DNA of 64,000 nucleotides from NCBI RefSeq assembly GCF_014931715.1, contig NZ_CP063164.1, forward strand, positions 1,860,001 to 1,924,000, given 5' to 3'. This document shows positions 5,441 through 55,328 of the stretch, piece after piece (the stretch's first letter is position 1; every line of letters begins with the position of its first letter). Position numbers and translations under genes: made by a program. The DNA comes from Sulfurovum indicum. Its GTDB lineage: Bacteria > Campylobacterota > Campylobacteria > Campylobacterales > Sulfurovaceae. The notes under the pieces are model-generated. The model made no database searches and was not told where the DNA came from. It saw only the letters and a program-made list of their open reading frames with translations.

Positions 5441-5468
5441 AACGTTCAGCGCTCAGCGCCCAACGCTT
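5441..5468. repeat. Degenerate tandem heptamer (4 units)
   Basis: AACGTTC AGCGCTC AGCGCCC AACGCTT lies just downstream of the zinc-ribbon gene. The 7-bp period is the same as in tracts near 8048, 23241, 23481, 33274 and 55303, though the unit sequence differs. Confidence 0.5.
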
Positions 5469-8047: not shown

Positions 8048-8082
8048 AACTCTTCACTCTTCGTTCTTATCTCTTCACTTCT
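8048..8082. repeat. Degenerate tandem heptamer (5 units)
   Basis: The units are AACTCTT CACTCTT CGTTCTT ATCTCTT CACTTCT. They stand between the purE stop and its terminator. Confidence 0.55.
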
Positions 8083-17968: not shown

Positions 17969-18040
17969 ATAACCAATCATTTAAATACCATCTAACAATA
18001 AAAGCTTTCCAACAGAAAAGCATACCAGCATTATTCATTA

Positions 18041-18595
18041 TTAAAGCCACGGCTTCAACACTTCTACCTGAAGCCCCATTGCCGTGCTCTCATATCCGTT
18101 TACTTCCAAAATATATTTTTTGCAAAACCCTTCAACCATACAGCCGCCTGCTTTGCCCTGCCACTCTCTGCTTTCAAGATAGACTTCAAGATCGGCTTTT
18201 TCAAAGGGTGCAAAACGGTAATGGGTTGCCGAAGTATCCGTAAAGAACAGTTCTTTTGACTTATAATGTACGGAGGTGATAATGGAGATAGTAGAGCCGC
18301 TCTGTATATTCAGGATACGTCTGGCATCATCTACATCTTTGGCTTTACGCAGTATCGTTCCGTCCGCTGCTGCAATAACTGTATCTGCACACAAAAGCGG
18401 CATATCGATGCCGTACAACTTTTCTGCCGCTTCCAGCTTGCCTTTGCTTGCCAAATAGACAAAATCTTTGGCTGCAGCTGTCTGTATTTGTTCTTCATCA
18501 AAATCAGCGGTTTTTTGTATAAAATCCACACCGAAGTTGCTAAGCAAAAGTGCACGAGACTCGGAAGCTGAACACAAACAAATTGTATTTTTCAC
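18041..18595 (-). CDS. maf: Maf-like nucleotide pyrophosphatase
   Basis: Maf proteins hydrolyse non-canonical nucleoside triphosphates such as dTTP, UTP or m7GTP. The 184 residues contain the substrate motif SASESRALLLSNFG near the N-terminus, the central CADTVIAAADG with the catalytic Asp and the C-terminal GKAGGCMVEGF. The opening MKNTICLC is slightly unlike the usual start of the family. It lies downstream of alaS and the CopD-like gene on the same strand. Confidence 0.88.
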   Translation of the reverse strand: MKNTICLCSASESRALLLSNFGVDFIQKTADFDEEQIQTAAAKDFVYLASKGKLEAAEKLYGIDMPLLCADTVIAAADGTILRKAKDVDDARRILNIQSGSTISIITSVHYKSKELFFTDTSATHYRFAPFEKADLEVYLESREWQGKAGGCMVEGFCKKYILEVNGYESTAMGLQVEVLKPWL

Positions 18596-22294: not shown

Positions 22295-23419
22295 CTATTT
22301 GTCAGTAAATGCTTTTAAAAACAGGGCGATCTCCCGGCTTCCGTCCTTCTCGACAATCTCCATCAAGCCTCTACTTTTTATTTCCAAGTTCTCATCCAGC
22401 AGAGCCAGTACTTTTTCTTTGCCAATCTCGTTCTCCTTCATCAGCCATGCAAGCTCTTTGTCTACAAGAAATTTTGCATTATGATACTGATGATCACCTG
22501 CTGCATAGGGGTATGGAACAAAAAGGGTCGGCAATGCTGCTGCAGAGAGTTCCCAGAGTGTTGATGCACCTGCTCGCGCTATGGCAAAGTCTGCTTCATT
22601 CATATAGTCTGCCAGCTTGGTAGTAAACCCAAAGACCTCTGCTTCGATTCCAAGCTCTTTATAGGTGTTTTCTACTTCTTCAATATGATTACTTCCCGCC
22701 TGATGGATGATCTTAATACCACGTTCTTTAAGCTCCGGAGCTATGGAAAGAGCCAGCTCATTAATTGCCCTGGCACCTTGTGAACCACCCAAAAAAATAA
22801 CAGTGTTGGCCTTTTTTCGGATATGTGCATTTTGAAAAAAAACCTCTTTGACCGGATACGCTTTAATAGGACTCTCCTCCAGATAAGAACTAATAAAGGC
22901 TGCAGAAAAGGGTTTGAGCAGTCTGTTTAACGAACCCTGTGCTGCATTCTGTTCATGGATCACAAGCGGGATCCCCAGAGATTTGGCTGCAAAAGCCGTT
23001 GCCGCAGCAGAAAAGCCCCCTACAGAGAAGACCACTTTTGCATGATGCTTCTTGAGTAGCTTTCGTGCCTCCAAAAAGGCCTTGAACATCATCCAGAGTG
23101 CCTGAAGTTTTCCTATTCCTCTCTGATTGACAACTCCTTTGGTTTTAAGAAAATATTTGGCTTCAAAGTCAACATCATCTTCAAACCACTGTCTGTCCTG
23201 TCCTTTTGTCGAACCGATATATACCAACTTTGTTGGTAGAGAAGAGTGAAGAGTGAAGGGTGAAGAGTTTTGGCTGGTATCGCTTTGCGACACCTCTTTA
23301 TAAGCTCTTAACTCTGCCCCCTGATCCCTTTTGTCAGCATTATTGACAAGCTGCTCTTTTACTGCTCTTACAATAGCAAGATGTCCACCCGTTCCACCAC
23401 CCGTCATAACAATACTCAT
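22295..23419 (-). CDS. murG: MurG N-acetylglucosaminyltransferase with in-frame insertion
   Basis: MurG adds GlcNAc to lipid I to make lipid II at the inner membrane. The start MSIVMTGGGTGGHLAIVRAV and the motifs HEQNAAQGSLNRLL and LGGSQGARAINELAL are typical. GASTLWELSAAALPTLFVPYP completes the set. About residues 28-63 (ADKRDQGAEL to SSLPT) are an extra segment between helix 1 and the strand KLVYIGSTKGQD; most MurG proteins have only a few residues there. The extra DNA contains four GAAGAGT heptamers and a small hairpin. The gene ends 374 residues long. Confidence 0.93.
   Translation of the reverse strand: MSIVMTGGGTGGHLAIVRAVKEQLVNNADKRDQGAELRAYKEVSQSDTSQNSSPFTLHSSLPTKLVYIGSTKGQDRQWFEDDVDFEAKYFLKTKGVVNQRGIGKLQALWMMFKAFLEARKLLKKHHAKVVFSVGGFSAAATAFAAKSLGIPLVIHEQNAAQGSLNRLLKPFSAAFISSYLEESPIKAYPVKEVFFQNAHIRKKANTVIFLGGSQGARAINELALSIAPELKERGIKIIHQAGSNHIEEVENTYKELGIEAEVFGFTTKLADYMNEADFAIARAGASTLWELSAAALPTLFVPYPYAAGDHQYHNAKFLVDKELAWLMKENEIGKEKVLALLDENLEIKSRGLMEIVEKDGSREIALFLKAFTDK
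23223..23268. repeat. Heptamer tract and hairpin inside murG
   Basis: GAAGAGT GAAGAGT GAAGGGT GAAGAGT (23241-23268) adjoins the perfect hairpin ACCAAC-TTT-GTTGGT (23223-23237). Both lie in the coding region of the extra MurG segment. Confidence 0.65.
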
Positions 23420-23480
23420 TGCATATCTCCTCTTCTGCTTACAACATGTATGAAAACGGAGCCACTGCACCGCATACCAC

Positions 23481-23508
23481 AACCCTTCACTCTTTACTCT
23501 TCACTATA
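23481..23508. repeat. Degenerate tandem heptamer (4 units)
   Basis: AACCCTT CACTCTT TACTCTT CACTATA lies between ftsW and murG. It is followed directly by GGGCACCTATAAT, which resembles the end of the element at 56916. Confidence 0.5.
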
Positions 23509-23514
23509 GGGCAC

Positions 23515-24699
23515 CTATAATATATTCCCGTGCATATCACGTGGAACCTTTTTCGATACCATCAGTATCATCCCTATGGCGATACACATTGCCAGAATGT
23601 GTGAACCTCCATAACTCAGGAATGGTACTGCAATCCCTTTGATAGGAGTAATTCCTGATATTCCGTAAGCGTTGAGAATGAACGAATATGCAATAAGCAG
23701 ACCGATCCCTACACTGAAAAGGTAGTACATCGGGTCCTGTACTTTGGACGCGATCTTGAAGATGCGGAAGATTACAAAAAGTACAGTGAATACAACAAGT
23801 GCCAGTCCTGCAAAACCAAGCTCTTCTGTAATCCCCGCCAAGATAAAGTCGGTATGTACCTCAGAGAGGTAACCCAGCTTGAACTGTCCGTTTCCAAGCC
23901 CCTGTCCCCAAAGTCCTCCATTGTGAATGGCATTGAGAGAGTTTGATATCTGCCATGGTTCTTTTACCGTCGCCTCCACCCTTAAATACTGTACTGACTC
24001 AAACGGGAACAGAGAGAGCACTGTATCCTGTACACTTACCCACCAGCTTTTGATACGTGCCATACGGTGGGGAGCAAAAAAAATCAGAGCGATCACACCG
24101 GCAAAAGCTGAAGAGAGCAGCATTAAAAAGAACTTGTAGGAACTGCCTACGAATAAAAACAGTGTCAATAAAGTAGCTCCCAGTACAACCACCTGGCCAA
24201 GATCTTTCTGAAAGATCGCAATAAGTACAACGGCTATGGCAAAAATAATCAAATAGGGTGCAAACAGCCTAAGCTCCTCAAGAAAACCCATCTTCTCCTT
24301 GTCTCCAAGCTTGCGCTTGAAACTCCACGCAAGAAAAAAGACAAATCCCACTTTAAAGAACTCTACAGGTGCGATAGAGAGCGGTCCAAGATGTATCCAG
24401 CGCTTGGCACCGCCTACCGCATTGACCAGAGAGGCGGGCAGAAACTGCATAGCGATCATTAATATAAAAAAAACAATAAAAAGCATTATACCGGTAGGGG
24501 CAAACCACTTATCAGGATCAAGTTTGCTTAAAATGATCATTGCAGTCAATCCTGCAAAGACCGCTGCAGTCTGACGAATAAAAAAATGAAATTCGTTATA
24601 GCCAAAATGCTGTACAGTATAGACAGAGAGAGAGTAATCCATCACCAATGAAAGAGTCAGAAGTGCCATCACTGCGGTAAGAAGCGGTTTGTCTATCAT
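23515..24699 (-). CDS. ftsW: FtsW/RodA/SpoVE-family glycosyltransferase (FtsW)
   Basis: This SEDS-family membrane glycan polymerase has 394 residues and about ten membrane helices. The signature near the C-terminus reads VPFLSYGGSHILAMCIAIGM, and the extracellular loop holds EVHTDFILAGITEELGF. Its position just upstream of murG on the same strand favours FtsW (division) over RodA. A divergent PBP2/FtsI-type gene lies beyond the shared promoter region. Confidence 0.88.
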   Translation of the reverse strand: MIDKPLLTAVMALLTLSLVMDYSLSVYTVQHFGYNEFHFFIRQTAAVFAGLTAMIILSKLDPDKWFAPTGIMLFIVFFILMIAMQFLPASLVNAVGGAKRWIHLGPLSIAPVEFFKVGFVFFLAWSFKRKLGDKEKMGFLEELRLFAPYLIIFAIAVVLIAIFQKDLGQVVVLGATLLTLFLFVGSSYKFFLMLLSSAFAGVIALIFFAPHRMARIKSWWVSVQDTVLSLFPFESVQYLRVEATVKEPWQISNSLNAIHNGGLWGQGLGNGQFKLGYLSEVHTDFILAGITEELGFAGLALVVFTVLFVIFRIFKIASKVQDPMYYLFSVGIGLLIAYSFILNAYGISGITPIKGIAVPFLSYGGSHILAMCIAIGMILMVSKKVPRDMHGNIL

Positions 24700-24879
24700 T
24701 TTTTCACTCTTATGCCATTTTTTTTGAATTGAACTCTCTGAAAAATTCTGTTATTCTCAAGATATCTCCCCGGGTCTTTGAAATCTATAGATCGGTAATG
24801 CCAATACAGTGTGGATCCTCCGGTCAAACCGGAAAATGACGAAGAGTACTGCCAGACTCTTCAGAGGTATCAATTGGGC

Positions 24880-49713: not shown

Positions 49714-49849
49714 ATCATACTCCTCATTTATCATTCATAATTCTATCGGATACCTGTAACCGTAAAAGCGGGATTCCAGTCCAGCCTAAAACAAAAGCTT
49801 TTCAGATTAAAAAGCATACAACAACTCCTCACTCCTGCTTTTACCTTCA

Positions 49850-55302: not shown

Positions 55303-55328
55303 TTCACTCTTCACTCTTCACTCCTCAC
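55303..55328. repeat. Tandem heptamer at the nirJ stop
   Basis: TTCACTC repeated three times, then CTCAC, spans the end of nirJ and the gap to nirE. Just downstream on the nirJ transcript is GCGTGATTATGCATCCT (read on the plus strand, 55281-55297), similar to the prfB hairpin. Confidence 0.55.

Follow-up and report, generated by a model that had tools for sequence, protein, structure and literature searches.

A composite heptamer and hairpin repeat in the MurG loop of Sulfurovum indicum, from a dispersed family with frequent inverted copies of flanking DNA

Introduction

The murG gene of Sulfurovum indicum raises the question of how tandem heptamers of a type found between genes came to lie in the reading frame of a conserved cell-wall enzyme, and to what kind of repeat they belong. 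The locus is part of a 64,000-nucleotide stretch of contig NZ_CP063164.1 (positions 1,860,001 to 1,924,000 of the forward strand, assembly GCF_014931715.1), which we call the window and whose coordinates are used throughout; the genome of the window is a single contig of 2.21 Mb and is designated G000 among the 78 Sulfurovum genomes searched. An original prediction, made from the letters of the window, held that an intergenic-type repeat had entered murG in frame and had been tolerated there, as palindromic elements are in Rickettsia proteins.

The background to such repeats includes the STRR heptamers of cyanobacteria, which form arrays between genes, and very small mobile repeats. According to the account in PMC4679880, several bacterial groups carry dispersed heptamer repeats; the TAACTGA heptamers of the Beggiatoaceae are dispersed and mostly intergenic, with examples in coding sequence, one of them at the end of a Beggiatoa MurG, and in that account no mechanism of spread is evident for the TAACTGA type. 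The pertinent sections of PMC3733652 cover intragenic REPs, including Rickettsia palindromic elements, and report different REPs at about the same recB site in two Xanthomonas species, as well as the presence of both GTAG and CGTC repeats in Sulfurovum NBC37-1. Among the matches listed in the open-access literature, we recognised no description of the composite element reported here, and the words Sulfurovum, heptamer, and tandem are all absent from a survey of REPs (PMC12306157).

The insert in MurG

The product of the gene scores 248.1 bits against TIGR01133, just under the cut-off of 250.25, matches both Pfam Glyco_transf_28 and Pfam Glyco_tran_28_C, and, as a predicted fold, has solved MurG structures as its six best matches. 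Relatives of this MurG are encoded at 15 named loci, 14 in Sulfurovum assemblies and one in an Epsilonproteobacteria assembly. The reading frame is unbroken through the insert (23419 to 22295 on the minus strand), in which 40 residues replace 4, for a net gain of 36 over the usual 23-residue loop. The features of the locus are as follows.

22295..23419, minus strand: murG, 374 aa, open frame with its ATG at 23417-23419
23228..23347, minus strand: inserted segment of MurG, residues 25-64, from the alignment with relatives
23222..23228, plus strand: stem A, native murG arm (TACCAAC on the plus strand, GTTGGTA on the minus strand)
23232..23238, plus strand: stem A, inverted-copy arm GTTGGTA within the insert (loop of 3 nt, 23229-23231)
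23241..23268, plus strand: heptamer array GAAGAGT GAAGAGT GAAGGGT GAAGAGT
23276..23294, plus strand: hairpin B, GGTATCGC-ttt-GCGACACC, with one mismatch
23331..23349, plus strand: inverted repeat TTGTCA-gcattat-TGACAA at the other end of the insert

The original prediction had placed four GAAGAGT units within 36 extra residues; the net length and the number of units stand, but three of the units are exact and one reads GAAGGGT (period 7, 4.0 copies, 90% matches). The insert comprises more than heptamers, as it also contains a hairpin and a short inverted repeat at either end. The native arm of stem A spans the third base of K64 and then codons L65 and V66, and the inverted repeat at the other end has a perfect counterpart in genome G035 (CTTGTCA-gcagtac-TGACAAG). 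Because control windows reach a 7-bp stem in 2.9% (under stricter placement) or 4.5% of cases, the 7-bp stem of murG is weak by itself.

In an AlphaFold2 model of MurG (12 rows; mean pLDDT of 76.0), insert residues 29-61 fall below 50 and sit between helix 1 (residues 11-26) and strand 2 (residues 64-70). The insert is accordingly modelled as a disordered segment of an external loop, on the side that, in this kind of fold, points away from the active cleft, and the intact frame and the loop position suggest that MurG tolerates it.

A composite element dispersed through the genome

The window contains 32 occurrences of GAAGAGT, where shuffled sequence averages 11.2 and none of 100 shuffles attains 32; across the whole genome, the two-unit sequence GAAGAGTGAAGAGT is found 62 times when up to one mismatch is allowed, and its reversed control 6 times. 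Other GAAGAGT arrays of the genome have a downstream part in common, consisting of TTGGTATG, a hairpin, and CTTTTATT. The typical order of the element is stem A (where there is one), a GAAGAGT-like array, the TTGGTATG linker, the 7-bp hairpin B, and CTTTTATT, with TTTTATT following hairpin B. It is not a plain simple repeat of tandem 7-bp units alone, because the linker and hairpin B follow the array, and the MurG insert is a whole composite element of this kind, which goes beyond the original prediction.

The hairpin varies from copy to copy and retains its pairing. In an alignment of 16 copies, chosen after the hairpins had been seen (15 from this genome and one from murG of G076), each of the seven pairs has changes in both of its partners, and pairing is kept in 91.9% of cells versus 69.9% in shuffles, with none of 500 shuffles as high on any of five measures. 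When 26 arrays were chosen by the array alone, 12 had a perfect stem of at least 7 bp within the next 40 nt (0.5 expected).

Thirteen copies, all from this genome and that in murG among them, served to build a covariance model (R1). It has 81 matches in this genome at an E value of ≤1, of which 13 are the training copies, and matches in 55 of the 78 genus genomes at an E value of ≤0.1; at most 78 candidates were scored per genome, so high per-genome counts are lower bounds. We examined 74 of the 81 matches with their flanks, and two of these elements sit within a frame that stays open for 40 codons to either side, one in MurG and the other in a 137-residue frame that is taken to be spurious. 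The R1 matches and related features of the window are listed here; a search of the window against Rfam gave 0 matches above the gathering score.

23256..23303, plus strand: R1 match within the murG insert (48.5 bits, E value of 1.1e-7; this copy is among the 13 training sequences)
23446..23494, minus strand: second element, R1 match between ftsW and murG (29.3 bits, E value of 0.0026)
23505..23519, minus strand: stem A of this second (ftsW) element, TATAGG-tgc-CCTATA, whose native arm holds the ftsW stop codon
8014..8061, minus strand: R1 element (57.5 bits; a training sequence)
17994..18042, minus strand: R1 element (39.9 bits)
49787..49836, minus strand: R1 element (39.2 bits)
55303..55328, minus strand: heptamer array adjoining a 13-bp perfect inverted repeat, CGTGCTATCTGAG-taagg-CTCAGATAGCACG, outside the R1 matches

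Five tracts between genes had been assigned to the same GAAGAGT/CACTCTT type as the murG repeat, an assignment that we confirm at 8048, 23481, and 55303, whereas the tracts at 5441 and 33274 consist of TCAGCGC-type and AATTTTT-type heptamers, respectively.

Of the neighbouring R1 matches separated by less than 200 bp, 12 of 13 cases in this genome (drawn from 80 of the 81 matches) and 23 of 24 in other genomes (one of the 23 being counted twice) are oriented head to head. Many units are single, with 24 of 80 matches here belonging to head-to-head pairs, and the outer ends of head-to-head units are site specific, differing from one site to the next. The last two heptamer units are 79% identical within an element versus 64% between elements across all 74, and 86% versus 68% in the 48 longer arrays, the first of these latter figures being inflated by the array-ending rule. 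Recounts free of picking or rule bias uphold the results for hairpin B, stem A (see below), and unit identity, all three with smaller effects.

Two further loci are recorded as observations in their own right. At G000:C1:229395-229429 (locus L012), a gene that looks to us like ubiA may start within a heptamer array, with the open frame running on from GTGAAGAGT. In the window at 24811-24862, a frame upstream of the likely true start of a penicillin-binding-protein-like open reading frame reads MDPPVKPENDE, which we take to resemble the translation of a widespread palindromic repeat, and GAAGAGT occurs on both strands nearby.

Turnover of repeats in the MurG loop

A MurG match was obtained in 72 of the 78 genomes, and the length of the loop, taken as the stretch from GGTGGH to Y(I/V/M)GS, was measurable in 67; among the unmeasured loci, one lacks the motif and two are cut by contig ends. 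The loop is short (23 residues) and without insert in 45 of the 67 and longer (26 to 59 residues) in the other 22; the loop of G095, which has the YMGS motif, measures 31 residues. By eye, 12 of the 22 longer loops carry one of five repeat types, which leaves ten unassigned.

G000: GAAGAGT
G035: CTCAACG
G002, G009, G031, G066, G076, G077, G091: GGGAGC-type heptamers
G068, G098: CTTCGACA-GCTCAG palindrome
G083: GTCGGG palindrome

The repeat found in a MurG loop is frequently abundant in its own genome. In counts that include the MurG copy itself and cover all types except the GTCGGG palindrome, G035 ranks 1st of the 78 genomes for CTCAACG, G009 1st for GGGAGCA, G098 and G068 2nd and 4th for CTTCGACAAGCTCAG, and G000 5th for GAAGAGT; G031 and G077 are merely moderate for GGGAGCA, with 4 each.

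On a tree of 65 MurG sequences from which the loop had been excised, loops of more than 26 residues require at least 6 changes. The long-looped G068 and G083 are nested among short-looped relatives, and their long loops would most simply be later gains. All ten rows of the clade containing G000 are long-looped with differing contents, and therefore loop content turns over. The same MurG loop is a site that has been filled several times by different repeat families, a result that extends the original prediction. In one further genome, the MurG match (G033:C12:71162-72088, locus L055) has one TAG within the aligned stretch.

These comparisons bear out the proposed in-frame entry of an intergenic-type repeat into murG and its tolerance there: the frame is open, the insert is missing from most MurGs of sister species, and the loop is predicted to be disordered. 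Rather than conserving the segment at the amino-acid level, other species hold unrelated repeats in the same loop. The likeness drawn to Rickettsia palindromic elements also holds, in that an in-frame insert in a conserved protein is missing from relatives, as in other intragenic palindromic elements. The original account is largely right, being correct in outline.

Inverted copies of flanking DNA

The array is frequently preceded by stem A, a perfect inverted repeat whose sequence changes between sites; by eye, one arm of the stem is frequently the end or the start of the neighbouring gene and the other is an inverted copy. That the element family frequently shows such copies of flanking DNA is likewise new with respect to the original prediction. 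With windows from the same flanks as controls, stems of at least 7 bp occur in 27 of the 74 elements here (3.3 expected) and in 39 of 80 elements in other genomes (7.2 expected), and stems of at least 10 bp in 9 of 74 (0.8 expected) and 22 of 80 (1.2 expected), respectively; most of the 80 come from sites fetched for their strong stems in G000, and some are orthologous. Among the 31 elements from other genomes taken by R1 score alone, 13 have a stem of at least 7 bp (2.3 expected) and 6 have one of at least 10 bp (0.4 expected). Stricter placement of the stem leaves 21 of 74 elements here with at least 7 bp, versus 2.9% of controls. The commonest loop among the 27 stems is 3 nt long (10 of 27), and about half of the elements have no perfect stem of at least 6 bp (38 of 74 in this genome and 33 of 80 in others).

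Occupied and empty sites

Such stems would also arise if an ordinary mobile miniature element favoured existing hairpins, such as terminators or ribosome-site stems, in which case stem A would be the target and not a copy. We compared ten gene boundaries (ends or starts), with as many as ten relatives for each, at sites picked because most had strong stems in G000. Two empty sites speak against a pre-existing target: ispG and dnaB in G023, G071, and G076 are nearly back to back, without element and without palindrome, and nusB in G095 and G071 has neither element nor inverted copy. The copy arm also tracks species-specific changes of the gene arm, matching each species' own gene at nusB (G000 and G035) and at dnaB (G002 and G095). 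Upstream of dnaB, G000 and G035 read TTAAAACTCC-(3 nt)-GGAGTTTTAA; in G002, G009, and G014 a 13-bp stem covers the dnaB start codon; and the copy arm of G095 matches the ATGGAC of that genome, at a place where ATGGAA is found in the others. In G000, the nusB site has GCTATTGGAAAA together with its copy TTTTCCAATAGC, and in G035 it has GCAATAGGGAAA together with TTTCCCTATTGC.

When the sites were scored mechanically, stems of at least 8 bp were present at 15 of 25 occupied versus 4 of 43 empty sites (Fisher p of 1.3e-5) and, with G000 left out, at 9 of 16 versus 4 of 43 (p of 3.7e-4), p values that serve as a guide only because orthologous sites are not independent; of the 109 sites scored, the 41 unclear ones were left out of this comparison. 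Two empty sites with a stem are special cases, truB in G076 being really an element with one unit and nusB in G023 holding another repeat. Insertion beside pre-existing palindromes is nevertheless what two other sites suit, the palindrome at rpe being native coding sequence that is present in G095 and G023, both without the element, and purH in G023 having a 14-bp palindrome without an R1 element; some stems, moreover, look like terminators. On balance, we consider it unlikely that stem A is a target.

Tracking of gene arms by copy arms would equally be seen if stem A were a functional RNA hairpin, a ribosome-site lid or a terminator, that was selected after a simpler repeat had inserted, and several stems do cover a ribosome site or start codon (dnaB and truB). 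Stems are present at gene ends as well as at starts, however, and also inside the murG coding sequence, and selection for such a hairpin seems to us a rather improbable origin of the stems.

The array unit is not fixed at a given site. At luxS, the arrays are, by eye, CACTCTT-like in G000, G023, G076, and G095, CACTATT-like in G002, G009, G079, and G084, TTTTAAT-like in G035, and of yet another unit in G014, and these arrays of differing unit adjoin a largely common flank; at dnaB, the stem is common to G000 and G035, but the heptamer unit is not. At several of the same gene boundaries, G009, G014, G023, G079, G084, and G095 have other palindromic repeats (TAGGGTGCG...CGCACC and TAGGGTCGGTTTACCGACC types) and no heptamer element there.

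Discussion

We favour the view, at a probability of roughly 0.6, that the murG insert is a copy of a non-autonomous dispersed repeat whose insertion involved fold-back copying at DNA ends and which an external loop of MurG has tolerated; fold-back insertion is the mechanism that we infer and prefer. Where DNA is broken or a fork has stalled, a 3' end would fold back on itself and copy 6 to 14 nt of flank, after which the element sequence would be added, and two ends extended in this way would be joined near the AT-rich centre. The heptamer array could later expand, contract, or change its unit through slippage and exchange with other copies. In most genes, an insert of this sort would be harmful and lost, and the MurG loop would accept an insert that leaves the reading frame intact. 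The inverted arms, the short loops, and the head-to-head arrangement of units are all accounted for by such copying of a 3' end, and ends that often match the neighbouring gene in inverted form, together with covarying hairpins, make for a concrete, testable insertion mechanism. Counting against this view, besides the rpe and purH palindromes and the many elements without a perfect stem, is the difference in heptamer unit among elements of one genome, for which a single template gives no explanation.

A related but improbable account, to which we give about the same weight as to the functional RNA hairpin, is that the elements are scars at broken ends left by a dedicated end-extension activity, by which each 3' end would fold back, copy its own flank, and gain purine-rich heptamers and a hairpin cap in a telomere-like manner before two such ends were joined head to head, with the unit then drifting or being replaced at fixed sites.

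Hairpin units in head-to-head pairs are also reminiscent of REP/REPIN elements mobilised by Y1 (RAYT) transposases, and Y1_Tnp matches are present in 58 of the 78 genomes, with 4 in G000. Two element-rich genomes, G019 (100% complete) and G076 (91%), lack any Y1_Tnp match at an E value of ≤0.001 and yet have 36 and 57 R1 matches, respectively, which weakens the case for a RAYT/Y1 transposase as the mover; the foot of hairpin B in the consensus, moreover, is TTGGTATG, without a GTAG (or CGTC) tag, and we think a REP/REPIN origin very unlikely. Least credible of all is that local replication slippage in murG made the heptamers with no dispersed element involved, although work cited by PMC4679880 proposes that slippage can give rise to heptamer arrays. 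The murG insert shares its linker and hairpin with a dispersed element that matches this genome about 80 times, and a hairpin follows such arrays far above chance (the 12 of 26 given above); we reject slippage alone on these grounds.

The murG copy has partial counterparts in several described systems. As with the intragenic REPs and Rickettsia palindromic elements treated in PMC3733652, a short palindromic dispersed repeat lies inside an open reading frame; unlike the intragenic REPs as presented there, the Sulfurovum element has heptamer arrays, hairpin arms that vary from copy to copy, and ends that often bear inverted copies of the target. The TAACTGA repeats (PMC4679880) resemble it as dispersed heptamer arrays that are mostly between genes and sometimes in coding sequence, but they have one fixed unit, and no linker, hairpin module, or target copy is described in the sections of that source on which we draw. 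The BrickBuilt MITE of Porphyromonas gingivalis (PMC4596501) similarly has a tandem repeat within a small element with inverted ends; its unit is 23 nt, however, and it is reported as always intergenic, with no target-derived stem in the description available. The tandem repeats of Borgs (PMC9879509) evolve fast and give disordered protein segments, as is predicted for the murG insert, whereas their in-frame units, as summarised in that source, are multiples of three and their arrays arise independently, not as a dispersed composite element. What sets the Sulfurovum repeat apart is its modular build, with heptamers as just one module, ends that often carry local gene sequence in inverted copy, and hairpins that vary yet keep pairing, and MurG offers a repeat-tolerant site in a conserved cell-wall enzyme that has been repeatedly filled by unrelated repeat families.

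Beyond the genus genomes, one exact 18-base pattern had no match in viral contigs, and a 59-nt element query had none in a plasmid collection at an E value of ≤1e-3. With a 63-nt query and an E value of ≤1, the plasmid collection yielded 5 records. Segatella and Phocaeicola plasmids (L293, L294, and L297) and a Rhizobium plasmid (L296) have short GAAGAGT-like stretches without the linker, and the stretch in L297 sits inside an annotated hypothetical protein. Among the five, the linker is present only in Sulfurovum mangrovi, whose MurG has the short loop; its plasmid NZ_CP087125.1 (L295:382-444) has an element of the same build, consisting of TTCAATGC-gct-GCATTGAA, an array, and then TTGCGGTATGC.
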